From NCBI GenBank assembly GCA_022826195.1, contig JAJDVI010000058.1, forward strand, positions 62,001 through 126,000: 64,000 bases of DNA, in the 5' to 3' direction. The stretch is from Acidobacteriota bacterium (GTDB lineage Bacteria; Acidobacteriota; Vicinamibacteria; Marinacidobacterales; Marinacidobacteraceae). A model generated the notes under the pieces. The model did not search any database, was not told the DNA's origin, and saw only the letters and a list, made by a program, of their open reading frames with translations. This document shows positions 17,619 through 60,246 of this stretch, piece after piece. Each line of letters starts with the position of its first letter. Positions within the stretch are counted from its first letter, which is position 1. A program made the position numbers and the translations under genes.

Positions 17619-17648
17619 GACTCCAACCGGAGGGATGGATTTAGCCTA

Positions 17649-17847
17649 GCAGCCGGTGAGGAAACTCACGCGGCATTCGACGCCCGCTGGATCCCCGCTG
17701 AAACGCTCGCCTTCGGCTCGCTCGTCGTTGCGCTTCGGTCGAAATACACCCGGTATTCCTCCCTCGCGCGCCTTGTCAGCGAGGCCCAGCGGGCACCAGT
17801 TCTCCCGGTGGGGGGTCGGTGCTCACGCCAGTTCCCCCACCGGCTGC
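17649..17847. repeat. Structured dispersed intergenic element, copy 1 (199 bp)
   Basis: Ends GCAGCCGGTGAGGAAACT...AGTTCCCCCACCGGCTGC (terminal inverted repeat); reverse-complement homolog of 58417-58597. Confidence 0.9.
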
Positions 17848-18136
17848 CAGCAGTCCGGAACGCCGGGACCGGGAGCTCCGGAGACGATTCTTCGTGAGAA
17901 GAGCGGGCACGGGAACGCGTTCGGAATGGTAGGATCGGCGGTCGGGCTGCGGACGGTCTCCGTCCGTGCGAACGAGCGCGGCGGCCATTTCGTCCGCGTG
18001 ACGACCGGCCGAACGAGGTCCAGCGTTTCGAGCTGGCGCACGTCGTTCGGCGGCCGGTCCGGGCGCCGGGATCCGAGCGATTCCCCAAGTGTTCCCGGGT
18101 CGGAGCGAATCCCTAACGTCCACAATCTGGAGCAGC

Positions 18137-20223: not shown

Positions 20224-20395
20224 GCGCCGGCTTGGAACGCCGGCTTCAGCCGGCACGGCCCGCCGCAGGCGGGCGGCGGGACGGACCCCATCCGCCCGAT
20301 GGCTCCGCTCTGCGCCATGCATCCGGGGTAGCGACGAACCGCCCGCGGCCCTGGGGGCCGCTGTGCGGGCTGAAGCCGGCGTTCCAGGCCGGCGC
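20224..20395. repeat. Long inverted repeat (REP-like), arms 20224-20251 and 20368-20395
   Basis: gcgccggcttggaacgccggcttcagcc vs reverse complement of ggctgaagccggcgttccaggccggcgc: 27/28 identical. Confidence 0.85.
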
Positions 20396-51257: not shown

Positions 51258-51333
51258 TGGCAGGCCAGGAGGGGATCGAACCCCCAACCCCCGGTTTTGG
51301 AGACCGGTGCTCTGCCAATTGAGCTACTGGCCT
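51258..51333 (-). tRNA. tRNA-Trp(CCA)
   Basis: AGGCCAGTAGCTCAATTGGCAGAGCACCGGTCTCCAAAACCGGGGGTTGGGGGTTCGATCCCCTCCTGGCCTGCCA; anticodon loop CTCCAAA; 3' CCA encoded. Confidence 0.96.
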
Positions 51334-51351
51334 TCGCACCCCTCACGGTAG

Positions 51352-51516
51352 TCAACGCGTCTCCCGATGCAGTACGTGCGTCCGGCAGAAACGGCAGAAC
51401 TTGCGCAACTCCATCCGGCCCGGATGGGTTGCCCGGTTCTTCGTCGTGGAATACGTCCGCCGCTTGCAGTCGGTGCATGCCAGCGTGACGATCTGCCGCT
51501 TCTTTTCGCGAGCCAT
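51352..51516 (-). CDS. rpmG: 50S ribosomal protein L33 (zinc-binding form)
   Basis: Not in ORF track; [54 protein letters not shown]. Confidence 0.95.
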
Positions 51517-51618
51517 GCCGTTTTCCCGTCGCTTCTACTCCGCTCAGATGTTTCGAGGATGGCCCTCCCGCGGCCGACTCACGCCGTCCGCGGGAGGACC
51601 GGTGCGTGCGCTCGCCGT

Positions 51619-52806
<1,188 letters not shown>

Positions 52807-52873
52807 CTGGTCTTCTCCTTGTTTGCTGCGAGACCTGAGATTCAGATCGTCCCCGGGGGGACGGAGGCGAGAG

Positions 52874-52948
<75 letters not shown>

Positions 52949-52975
52949 GGAGACGAGGGCGGGGGACCCCTGGCA

Positions 52976-53051
52976 TGGAGCGGGAGACGGGATTCGGACC
53001 CGCGACCCTCAGCTTGGAAGGCTGATGCTCTGCCAACTGAGCTACTCCCGC
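52976..53051 (-). tRNA. tRNA-Gly(TCC)
   Basis: GCGGGAGTAGCTCAGTTGGCAGAGCATCAGCCTTCCAAGCTGAGGGTCGCGGGTCCGAATCCCGTCTCCCGCTCCA; anticodon loop CTTCCAA. Confidence 0.96.
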
Positions 53052-53162
53052 GTGATGGAATGAAGGGACCGCCGACGGTGGACGCGCTACCGCGAGCCGG
53101 AGCGAGCTGTTGTCGGTGGTCAAGGCAGTGGGTGGGTTCGGTTGGGGAAACTCCGGAAGAGG

Positions 53163-53249
53163 TGGTGGAGCGGGGAGGATTCGAACCTCCGAAGGCGTAA
53201 AGCCGGCAGGTTTACAGCCTGCTGCGTTTGGCCGCTTCGCTACCACTCC
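53163..53249 (-). tRNA. tRNA-Tyr(GTA), long variable arm
   Basis: Class II tRNA with anticodon stem-loop GCAGGCTGTAAACCTGC, variable arm, T-arm GGAGGTTCGAATCCTCC and encoded CCA. Confidence 0.94.
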
Positions 53250-53385
53250 GCCCGGGAAACTCCGCCGCTCACGAGACGGGAGAGCAACCTCCCTGATAAT
53301 CAGCCGGCCGATCCGGAACGGGTCGTCCAGATCAGTCCCCCCGGACCCAGCGCGATCCGGTCCGATGCGGTCTGGCCCGATCCGG

Positions 53386-53458
53386 AGCTGGCGAAGGGAC
53401 TTGAACCCTTGACCGGCTGATTACAAATCAGCTGCTCTGCCTCCTGAGCTACGCCAGC
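53386..53458 (-). tRNA. tRNA-Thr(TGT)
   Basis: GCTGGCGTAGCTCAGGAGGCAGAGCAGCTGATTTGTAATCAGCCGGTCAAGGGTTCAAGTCCCTTCGCCAGCT; anticodon TGT; CCA not encoded. Confidence 0.95.
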
Positions 53459-56989: not shown

Positions 56990-58399
56990 TCACCAACCGG
57001 TTTCCTCGTCCGGGCCGGGATAGGCGTCCCGGCCCGCCTCCTCGTCGGCGGGGGTCATGAAGCGGGTGTACTGGCCTTGCCAGGAGAGCTTGATGCTGCC
57101 GACCGGGCCGTTCCGGTTCTTCGCCACGATGATCCGGCGTTCCTCCCGGAAGGGTGGCTTCGCCTGACCGGCGCCGTTCTCACCGCCAGGTCCCTCCTTG
57201 TTCCTGAGACGATGGATGAAGATCACGATATCCGCGTCCTGCTCGAGCGCGCCGGACTCGCGCAGGTCGGAGAGCCGGGGCGCGGTCCACTGCCCGGTGC
57301 GCTGCTCGGGCGCCCGGCTGAGCTGGGAAAGCGCCAGGACCGGAACGTCGAGCTCCTTGGCCAGCAGTTTGAGCGAACGGCTGATCTCGGCGATCTCCAG
57401 GTTCCGGTTCTCGAAGCGCCGGGATCCGGGGTCCGCGCCGCGCATCAGTTGGAGATAGTCGATGACGAGCAGGTCGAGTCCATCCTCACGGCTCAGCTTG
57501 CGCGCCTTGGAGCGGAGTTCGACGGGGTTCACGTTCGAGTCGTCCACGTAGATCGGCATGCGGGCAACGGCGGGAAGGGTGTTCTGGATGAGGCGGCGAT
57601 CTCGCTCGTTGAGCAGCCCGGGGCGGGAGAGCTGCCGCGAATCCACCCGCGCCTGGGAAAAAAGGAGACGCGCGGCGATCTGCCGGCGGGGCATTTCCAG
57701 GCTGAAGAACAACACGCGCTTGCCGGCGTGCCCGGCCGCTTCGGCGATGTTCAGCGCCAGACTGGTCTTGCCCTCGCCGGGCCGGGCCCCGATCAGGATC
57801 AGGTCCGCCTTGCGGAGGCCCCCCATCAGGTTGTCGAGGTCCTGAAAACCGGTGCGGATCCCCGAGAATCCCTCGCGCTGGCGGCCGGACTCCTCGGCGA
57901 GGAGGCCGAGATCCTCGGTGAGCCGCACCGGGCCGGCGGCGAAGGTGCCTTCGGCGATGGCGAACAGGTCCTGTTCGGCCGCGGCCAGGATCTCCTGCGG
58001 GGAGTCCCGGATCGCGTCGCTCGCGATGCGGCTGCCGAAATGGTGGAGTTCACGGCTGAGCGCCCGTTCGCGGACCAGCCTGGCGTAGTCCGCGGCGTTC
58101 GACGAACGGGCCACCCCATCGAGCAGTTCACTCAGGTAGCCGGCGCCGCCGGCGGCGTCCAGCTTCCCGTTCCGCTCGAGTTCCGCGCGAACGGTCAGCA
58201 GGTCGATCTTCCGCAGTTCGGGAGCATCGTCGAGTTCACAGAAGGCCTCGAAGATCCGCTGGTGGCGAACGTCGAGGAAATCCCTGGCCTTCAGGATTTC
58301 CCGCACGGAGTCGAGCTGACTCCGGTCCACCAGGACCGCGCCGAGGACCGCTCGCTCGGCTGCCAGGTCGTGCGGGAGGCGGACGGCTTCGTCCGGCAC
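56990..58399 (-). CDS. dnaB: Replicative DNA helicase DnaB
   Basis: GTG start; PHDLAAERAVLGAVLVDRSQLDSV; LILIGARPGEGKTSLALNIAE; DLLVIDYLQLMRG. Confidence 0.97.
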   Translation of the reverse strand: MPDEAVRLPHDLAAERAVLGAVLVDRSQLDSVREILKARDFLDVRHQRIFEAFCELDDAPELRKIDLLTVRAELERNGKLDAAGGAGYLSELLDGVARSSNAADYARLVRERALSRELHHFGSRIASDAIRDSPQEILAAAEQDLFAIAEGTFAAGPVRLTEDLGLLAEESGRQREGFSGIRTGFQDLDNLMGGLRKADLILIGARPGEGKTSLALNIAEAAGHAGKRVLFFSLEMPRRQIAARLLFSQARVDSRQLSRPGLLNERDRRLIQNTLPAVARMPIYVDDSNVNPVELRSKARKLSREDGLDLLVIDYLQLMRGADPGSRRFENRNLEIAEISRSLKLLAKELDVPVLALSQLSRAPEQRTGQWTAPRLSDLRESGALEQDADIVIFIHRLRNKEGPGGENGAGQAKPPFREERRIIVAKNRNGPVGSIKLSWQGQYTRFMTPADEEAGRDAYPGPDEETGW

Positions 58400-58416
58400 G
58401 GACAGACGCCTCGCTA

Positions 58417-58597
58417 GCAGCCTGTGGTGGAACTGGCGTGAGCACCGAGACGCCCGCTGAGCCTCGCTGACAAGGCGCGCGAGGAGGGAATACCGGGTGT
58501 ATTCCGACCGAAGCGCAACGATGAGCGAGGCGCAGGCGAGCGGTTCAGCGGGGATTCAGCGGGTGTCGAATGCCGCGCGAGTTTCACCACAGGCTGC
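58417..58597. repeat. Structured dispersed intergenic element, copy 2 (181 bp, inverted relative to copy 1)
   Basis: GCAGCCTGTGGTGGAACT...AGTTTCACCACAGGCTGC termini; highly similar to the reverse complement of 17649-17847; lies between rplI and dnaB. Confidence 0.9.
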
Positions 58598-58689
58598 TCG
58601 GGATTTTCCGCTGAGGAAGTGACGCGGCTCAGCCGGAGTCCGTCATGGCCGGGCCGCGTGACGTCTTCCACGGGCTGCTCCGGGCGGGG

Positions 58690-59274
58690 TCAGTCCTCCG
58701 CGTCGTCCGCTTCCTCGGAGGAGGCCTGAGGGACGGCCTCATCGTCATCGGATTCGGAGTCGGCGGCCCGTTTTGCCGACACCTCCGTCGGGATGTCGGG
58801 CACCGGCTCCACTCCGAGGGACCCGGCGGCGACCGGGGAGACCTCGATCGGAAGATCGACCTCGATTTCGCTGTGGAGCCGGACCACGGCCGACGCCTCG
58901 CCCGCCACCTTGATCGGGCCACCGAGAATGATGCGGTTCCGGGCGATCTCGAAGCCGCCCTCGGCGAGTTGCCGGGCAATGTCCTGCACGGACACCGAGC
59001 CGTACAGCTCGTTGGAATCGGTCTTGACCCGGCGCTCGAAACGGAGAGTGTGGCCCTCGAGGGAACGGGCGAGAGCCTCGGCCGCCTCCCGTTCCTTGAT
59101 CCGCTCGACCGCCCAGACCTTTCTCGCTTCGGCGACCTCCCGGCGGTTCTCTTCCGTGATCGGAACCGCGATCCGGCGGGGGAGCAGGTAGTTCCTGGCG
59201 TAACCCGGACGGACGTTGACTTCGTCGCCCGGTTCACCCAGGGCGTCCACGGGCTGTTTCAGCAGCAGGCGCAT
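58690..59274 (-). CDS. rplI: 50S ribosomal protein L9 with acidic C-terminal tail
   Basis: MRLLLKQPVDALGEPGDEVNVRPGYARNYLLPRRIAVPIT; tail ADSESDDDEAVPQASSEEADDAED. Confidence 0.95.
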   Translation of the reverse strand: MRLLLKQPVDALGEPGDEVNVRPGYARNYLLPRRIAVPITEENRREVAEARKVWAVERIKEREAAEALARSLEGHTLRFERRVKTDSNELYGSVSVQDIARQLAEGGFEIARNRIILGGPIKVAGEASAVVRLHSEIEVDLPIEVSPVAAGSLGVEPVPDIPTEVSAKRAADSESDDDEAVPQASSEEADDAED

Positions 59275-59295: not shown

Positions 59296-59541
59296 CTATT
59301 CGTAGGGCAGGAGCGCCATCTGCCGGGCGCGCTTGATGGCGACCCGGATCTGGCGCTGGGCCCGGGCGCTGGCGCGCGACACCCGCCGCGGGGCGATCTT
59401 GGCGCGGTCGCCGAGGAACTCGCGCAGAAAATCCACGTCCTTCCAGTCCACTCGGTCCACGCCATTCAGCAGTGGATTGACTCGCACGCGCCGGGCGGAT
59501 TGCCGGCGGCGGCGGCGAGGGGTCGCGGGCCTGTCGCTCAT
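59296..59541 (-). CDS. rpsR: 30S ribosomal protein S18
   Basis: [51 protein letters not shown]. Confidence 0.97.
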
Positions 59542-60119
59542 GATGTCTCCTCCTCATTCTGAGTGGACGCGTCCGGTGGCGCGGCCTCCCCGGCGTCGGG
59601 CTCCCCGGCCGCCTCTTCGGGCGGCTTGGCGGCAGCCTCGCCGGCCGCCTCCCCGGGGGGCTTGGCGGCACCCTCGCCGGCCGTTTCGCCGGACGGCTGG
59701 GCGGCAGGTTCGGCAGCTTCCTCAGCGGCTGCTTCCGCCGCCTTGGCGGCGGCCTCGGCAGCCGCGGCGGCCGCGCGGGCGGCTCGTTCCTCCCGCCGGC
59801 GCAGGTCTGCGGCCTGGTCCCGCTCGCGGGTTTCCTTGTCCGTCCGCAACACGATGAAGCGCAGCACGCCCTCGGCGAGGCGGACGCGGCTTTCGATTCC
59901 CCGGATGGAGGCCGGGGGCGCATCGAAGTAACAAAGGATGTAGAGGCCTTCATGGTGCCCGGCGATGGGGTACGCCAGCCGCCGCCGCTCCCAGGGTTTG
60001 AGGCTGACGATCTCGCCCCCCTGCCCCTTCACGATGCCCTCCACCCGCTCGACCACCGCCAGGGAAGCAGAGTCGTCAAGGGTCGGATCCAGAATGAACA
60101 TGAACTCGTAGCCGTTCAT
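59538..60119 (-). CDS. rpsF: 30S ribosomal protein S6 with long Ala/Glu-rich C-terminal repeat extension
   Basis: [67 protein letters not shown]; alternative start at 60173. Confidence 0.94.
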
Positions 60120-60246
60120 GAGGGAATCCGGTGGGGGCGGCGCCGCCGTCCGGGGACTCGACTGTTCGCTCATTCGAGAGTGTCTCCAGCGTCACCTGTG
60201 ACGCACCCCGCAGGGAACCGTGCGGGAATCTGCGGGCGGCTCCGCA

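Follow-up and report, generated by a model that had tools for sequence, protein, structure and literature searches.

What a 179-nt quasi-palindrome is doing between rplI and dnaB, and whether it controls the replicative helicase gene beside it, is the question that this locus raises. The window, by which we mean the whole 64,000-nt stretch of DNA analyzed, carries the usual gene order rpsF-rpsR-rplI-dnaB, verified here by profile matches, and the element interrupts that run in the rplI-dnaB spacer. The original prediction had located the element to within about 1 nt and had set its edge against a presumed dnaB Shine-Dalgarno sequence, and both points held. It had also proposed that dnaB mRNA would carry the fold and could be regulated by it, and those proposals fared differently, as described below. 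The parts of the locus are as follows, with helices P1 to P5 taken from RNAalifold on 77 copies (alignment A1).

56990 to 58399, minus strand: dnaB, replicative helicase, GTG start (PF00772, PF03796, and TIGR00665 above cut-off; N and C domains)
58409 to 58412, minus strand: dnaB Shine-Dalgarno sequence GAGG, native, 9 nt before the GTG and the same in relatives with an empty site
58414 to 58417, no strand: target duplication, dnaB-side copy, CTAG intact (empty sites in G003 and G006 read ..CCCTAGCGAGG..)
58418 to 58596, plus strand (the fold-conserved strand, antisense to rplI-dnaB): element copy 2, an IS1182-type MITE of 179 nt with a structured core (covariance model R1, 91 bits, E 1.7e-16; BLAST family in its own genome; comparison of filled and empty sites)
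58416 to 58444, plus strand: P1 5' arm, terminal stem including the terminal inverted repeat (A1 columns 14-42)
58449 to 58470, plus strand: P2 and P3 5' arms (A1 columns 47-70; double compensatory change in 9/9 P2 pairs)
58477 to 58516, plus strand: P4 hairpin, with two symmetric internal loops that are conserved tandem G·A mismatches on the plus strand (A1 columns 77-116)
58525 to 58541, plus strand: P5 hairpin, found in this genus and absent from the class-level 158-nt form (A1 columns 125-142; double change in 5/5 pairs)
58545 to 58567, plus strand: P3 and P2 3' arms (A1 columns 146-169)
58571 to 58598, plus strand: P1 3' arm, terminal stem (A1 columns 173-201)
58597 to 58600, no strand: target duplication, rplI-side copy, CTCG, one substitution off CTAG (sequence against the empty sites)
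58690 to 59274, minus strand: rplI, ribosomal protein L9 (PF01281, PF03948, and TIGR00158)
59296 to 59541: rpsR (S18)
59538 to 60173: rpsF (S6)
17650 to 17846, minus strand: element copy 1, inverted relative to copy 2 and carrying an extra 18-nt insert (R1, 45.5 bits, minus strand)

How the element came to lie in the spacer is answered by its relatives. Among eight genomes of the same genus, the rplI-dnaB spacer is filled in four (the source genome, G000, and G002, G005, and G007) and empty in four (G001, G003, G004, and G006). The empty site in G003 and G006 reads ..CCCTAGCGAGGCGTC.., and filled sites, on the coding strand, read CNAG or TCAG, then CAGCC...GGCTG, then CTAG and CGAGGCG. Read against each other, the filled and empty sites show CTAG as a 4-bp duplication at dnaB whose rplI-side copy has since mutated. 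Further filled/empty pairs back a 4-bp duplication elsewhere (L174/L195, L004/L150, and L181/L122), and class-level copies are flanked by the nonpalindromic direct duplications TTAT, TTGA, TTAC, and TTTA.

The element is also abundant. The source genome (3.85 Mb in 107 contigs) contains 27 BLAST matches, of which some 20 are near-full-length copies and the rest fragments, and 19 covariance-model matches; other members of the genus have 3 to 54 model matches per genome, and the named relatives in which the core pattern occurs are MAGs from the Acidobacteriota. Copies 1 and 2 of the window are ~90% complementary over 150 nt, far beyond chance, and nearly all copies end in CAGYCYGTGG..CCACRGRCTG, which are terminal inverted repeats. 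By sequence comparison, then, the element is an insertion of the nonautonomous DNA transposon (MITE) class: short, noncoding, multicopy, and interspersed, with terminal inverted repeats, a target duplication, and empty sites.

Regulation of dnaB by the element is possible but unsupported. One explanation for the locus is that the element serves as a cis-acting dnaB leader whose fold governs how the transcript is translated, terminated, or processed and separates dnaB expression from that of the ribosomal protein genes. The element does lie inside the operon and abut the Shine-Dalgarno sequence, and a minus-strand transcript would also form a long hairpin, with a predicted energy of -105.5 kcal/mol and a z-score of -6.9 against dinucleotide shuffles. 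The better fold, however, is on the plus strand of the window (-126.2 kcal/mol; z-score, -9.2), antisense to dnaB, such that dnaB mRNA would carry only the weaker-folding complement. Thus, the idea that the dnaB transcript carries the fold survives in part, as the complement still folds, but the conserved strand is the other one and any effect on dnaB is probably small. In the spacers of close relatives, the comparison that the original prediction proposed, the element is present in only four of eight species, and the Shine-Dalgarno sequence and GTG are identical in filled and empty genomes. Moreover, when 230 or 330 nt upstream was included, the predicted probability that the Shine-Dalgarno sequence is unpaired was 0.27 to 0.50 in filled species and 0.08 to 0.54 in empty ones. 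The two states are therefore not separated by how accessible the Shine-Dalgarno sequence and start are predicted to be, and Shine-Dalgarno sequestration was rejected. A leader regulating dnaB or ribosomal proteins would also recur in the same context and in sense orientation, but the other copies sit in many different gene contexts and without fixed orientation. We conclude that the element at dnaB looks tolerated rather than regulatory, and that a cis-acting leader is very unlikely. Effects on readthrough, processing, or mRNA half-life at dnaB are possible.

The copy in the source genome belongs to a subfamily different from that of G002, G005, and G007, and the filled species are not grouped in a tree of the flanking genes. 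Over those genes, the filled G002 and the empty G003 share 94.8% identity. The differing subfamilies occupy exactly the same site in the same orientation (L078, L079, L084, and L081), and in G005 a second element is nested within the first. Recurrent insertion at a preferred site and gene conversion plus loss are both possible.

Elsewhere, the element lands at gene ends. With a crude gene caller (codon-position GC) applied locus by locus, gene 3' ends lay within 6 nt of an element boundary in 49/127 cases and gene 5' ends in 7/127. Placement at 3' ends follows from the target, as YTAR contains TAA or TAG and a stop codon at the site is thus retained through the duplication. Among genus-level copies in tandem gene contexts, the fold-conserved strand was sense 21 times and antisense 37 times, and at the class level 8 and 8, counts that include copies not all independent. 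Thus, there is no fixed orientation to genes of the kind expected of a cis leader.

How the element moves is suggested by its ends. Locus L166 is a 1.47-kb insertion sequence reading TTAG-CAGCCCGTGGCAAAAGTCC..GGACTTTTGCCACGGGCTG-TTAG, with the same ends as the MITE, and it encodes a 451-amino-acid transposase with DUF772 and DDE domains whose best-scoring family is IS1182. The partner transposases scored 170.6 (L166) and 175.1 bits against NF033551 (NCBIfam IS1182), below the curated cut-off of 270, and thus we call them IS1182-like. Seven related copies with the same ends are present in G032, with duplications TTAG/TTAG, GTAG/GTAG, and CTAG/CTAG. The complete genome G266 has four DUF772 loci, two of which have clear ends, target duplications (CTAT/CTAT and CTAC/CTAC), and a 62%-identical transposase, and there the autonomous insertion sequence occurs together with 35 short-element matches in one genome. 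The ends CAGCCCGTGGTGAAAGT are common to the partner and the short element. The two share only about the outer 17 to 20 nt, however, and the conserved fold was not seen in the insertion sequence. A 4-bp target duplication is also made by ISPse1, a published IS1182 member (PMC3281130).

The partner is confined to other genomes in our survey. A matching transposase was found neither in the source genome nor in the other seven genomes of the genus, and so mobility there may be extinct or may be due to an undetected transposase. The DUF772 transposases of G001 were ruled out as partners because their ends differ (TAGGAGCCTGTCCCGTAG). A RAYT/Y1 mover was also rejected, as the source genome yielded a single Y1-type transposase gene (C67:212-919; L070), and no element ends lie beside it. 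Since the repeat does not flank that single Y1_Tnp gene, the element does not belong with REP/REPIN-RAYT systems, and the 4-bp duplications set it apart from IS200/IS605, which makes no target duplication.

The interior of the element is conserved as a fold. We used two independent alignments: A1, with 77 unique genus-level copies, and A2, with 24 class-level copies of ~158 nt. RNAalifold gave 63 pairs in A1, 38 with compensatory double change. Transposase recognition alone could keep the ends alike, and therefore the terminal stem was left out of the interior test. In the 36 interior pairs of A1, 98.1% of cells were paired and 20/36 pairs had a double change, the corresponding shuffled values being 88.1% and 11.4 (0/500), and sliding the partner by 1 to 3 columns dropped pairing to 29 to 45%. 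In A2, 96.0% of cells were paired and 17/33 pairs had a double change (0/500 shuffles). The copies are related, so the cells in these counts are not independent events.

The fold is kept on one strand. G·U outnumbered A·C in cells by 404:22 in A1 (about 18:1) and 104:10 in A2, and counted as column types the ratios were less extreme, at 42:17 and 21:8. The conserved strand was the more stable in 77/77 copies of A1 and 22/24 of A2, with a consensus energy for the genus set of -101.4 kcal/mol versus -37.5 for the opposite strand. The symmetric loops of P4 contain tandem G·A mismatches at the relevant columns in 70 to 76 of 77 copies, and these mismatches exist on that strand only. At the class level, L142 (6412-6569) and L257 have a fully Watson-Crick P4 (GATTCGGG/CCCGAATC) in place of tandem G·A, and thus having a helix there seems more important than having the mismatches. 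Judged from both alignments, the interior is a structured module (P2-P3-P4, plus P5 in the genus) that compensatory changes maintain on a single strand, and we infer that the selected molecule is RNA, with selection acting at the RNA level. No Rfam model matched over the element at gathering score; below-threshold hits were to irrelevant miRNA and lncRNA models.

The most surprising result is that one core lies between several different terminal repeats. From a phylum-wide sample of 297 Acidobacteriota genomes, model R1 recovered the element in at least 49, in a scan that scored ten candidates per genome, often with all ten filled. Core model R2 added two further genomes with 47 and 68 copies, the latter the highest per genome. 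Reading 20 distant matches gave the core consensus GCGCCCGGCTGGCAAGGCGCGACGAGGGAGAATACCGGGAGTATTYGACCGAGGAGCAACGC, framed by terminal repeats of at least six different types: CAGYCCGTGG, TCCCCTGGAATCG, TGTCCTGGAACCG, TGTYGCGTWTCRG, TGTCCCGTCTCAG, GGGYCNGTC, TGCCCCGATTCCG, and GCCCTGGCCGG. Varied ends around the same core mean that the terminal stem is retained as a stem while its sequence changes. Distant copies of the core nearly all adjoin TAG or TTA sites. Partner insertion sequences for the other terminal-repeat types (e.g., TGTCGCG, TCCCCTGG, and GGGYC ends) were not found in the genomes searched.

The core was not detected in G009, a genome of the same family, and plasmids, phages, and viral contigs gave no match by BLAST or exact pattern. 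One MAG contig assigned to Gemmatimonadetes (L158; JAGWBR010000033.1) has genus-type fragments. The genome gave a single weak match of 36.5 bits, and misbinning is thus likelier than spread to Gemmatimonadota.

We think it probable that the element is a MITE moved by an IS1182-like transposase, tolerated at dnaB, and conserved in its interior as a one-strand RNA module. An IS1182-like DDE transposase would recognize CAGYC(C/T)GTGG ends, move the MITE in trans, and insert it into 4-bp YTAR-type sites (CTAG, TTAA), duplicating them. As such sites hold TAA or TAG, many copies would come to rest at stop codons and other gene boundaries and leave genes unbroken, and one copy would have landed in the CTAG upstream of the dnaB Shine-Dalgarno sequence with the ribosome-binding site intact. 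When a copy is transcribed, as some presumably are, a folded RNA would act from the conserved strand. By analogy to NEMIS and ERIC transcripts, its likeliest role may be that of a compact RNA that lies within readthrough transcripts and undergoes processing or recognition by a protein. We tentatively suggest that the folded RNA keeps insertions from harming neighboring transcripts, a proposal in which we have less than even confidence.

Other explanations account for parts of the evidence. Perhaps the core is a gene for a trans-acting noncoding RNA, serving the host or the element, that has come under successive transposon ends with the MITE merely its vehicle. Phylum-wide conservation of the core under at least six terminal repeats and as many as 68 copies per genome fit such a gene, but the copies are numerous and scattered, no conserved promoter was identified in them, and failure to detect the core in G009 indicates that it is not essential to hosts; we regard this explanation as unlikely. 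Alternatively, the folded strand might act as a single-stranded DNA hairpin in replication or transposition, like the ends of REP/REPIN or IS200/IS605. Single-stranded DNA hairpins are known transposase substrates, DNA too accommodates stable tandem G·A pairs, and a strand-specific fold with G·T and tandem G·A pairs could arise in either molecule. The 4-bp duplications and the DDE partner, however, are signs of transposition as double-stranded DNA, the sole Y1 transposase detected in the source genome lacks these ends, and the copies listed for G266 occur on either strand and are not obviously segregated along the chromosome. Selection on single-stranded DNA thus seems quite improbable.

Finally, the palindrome might persist without selection if its arms were homogenized. 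Template switching or gene conversion can bring the arms of a long quasi-palindrome back into agreement, and the different subfamilies at the same dnaB site hint at conversion between copies. Homogenization would not account for the bulges and asymmetric loops that are kept, the one-sided G·U/A·C bias, or the unpaired loop bases that are among the most conserved, and we give it almost no weight. Returning to the conserved RNA module, we speculate that it is phylum-wide, mobile, and noncoding, built on a tandem G·A helix, acting from one strand, and repackaged between different transposon ends, such that the ends change and the RNA is conserved. This broader proposal may be correct, but we would not yet bet on it.

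Bacterial MITEs are usually regarded as insertion sequence remnants whose interior is passive. In this family, conservation lies in the interior, where both independent alignments show a one-strand fold maintained by compensatory change and where one core is framed by at least six different end pairs across Acidobacteriota. If the interior acts as RNA, the element would offer a clear example of a structured RNA under selection within a small DNA transposon. The family's autonomous and short members occur together in one complete genome, where they can be tested. The dnaB site adds a caution, in that a striking fold beside a ribosome-binding site can turn out to be an insertion that is simply tolerated. 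Literature searches of partial coverage returned no description of this element, and what we consider new is a MITE whose interior rather than its ends is conserved.

The element resembles known systems in part. It shares with the IS1182 family and its MITEs the ends (CAGCCCGTGGTGAAAGT), a 4-bp YTAR-type duplication, and DUF772 and DDE domains in the autonomous partner's transposase, but the partner transposases fall under the NCBIfam cut-off, and the short element has only the ends in common and carries a conserved fold not seen in the insertion sequence. It is like the REP/REPIN repeats with RAYT in being short, palindromic, and intergenic, and unlike them in having 4-bp duplications and no RAYT beside the repeat. 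NEMIS/Correia elements of Neisseria are 100 to 200 bp and mostly intergenic, with inverted ends, a target duplication, and long stem-loop transcripts (PMC2229807). The present element is similar in size, inverted ends, duplication, and location, whereas NEMIS has a TA target and other ends, and its long stem-loops are proposed RNase III substrates rather than a multihelix core with conserved G·A loops. In Streptococcus pneumoniae, RUP is a short element for which mobilization by an identifiable insertion sequence transposase, through ends that the two share, has been proposed (PMC2229807); it differs in its IS630-Spn1 partner and TA ends, and no conserved RNA core is reported there. The ERIC/IRU and YPAL elements of enterobacteria are imperfect palindromes of 127 to 168 bp, multicopy, with RNA hairpins that affect neighboring genes (PMC2267715, PMC2229807), and as of the 2007 review they still lacked a transposase partner. 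They too are multicopy imperfect palindromes, and they differ from the present element in target and sequence. We know of no equivalent in ERIC/IRU or YPAL of a core shared under different ends.

Several other repeats were noted. In G005, G006, and G007, elements are nested in elements at the same internal point, GGCGCG^TGAGG, at no fewer than four loci (L058, L059, L060, and L061), and either the point is a preferred self-target or the composite itself moves. In the source genome, an unrelated ~100-nt palindromic repeat lies at nearly the same place inside two element copies (C96:69844-70141 and C3:25637-25914; L010/L024 and L015/L025). Copy 1 (17645-17851) contains an inserted short unit, GGCCAGTTCTCCCGGTGGGGGCC or its complement, which recurs in L002, L003, L004, and L010, in the G001 rplI-dnaB spacer (L085), and elsewhere and may be a separate small repeat family. 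The window also contains a long inverted repeat at 20224-20395, unrelated to the MITE, with 53-nt arms that are 81% complementary and 66 nt apart and with GAAGCCGGCGTTCC. Five tRNA genes are grouped on the minus strand at 51261-53458.
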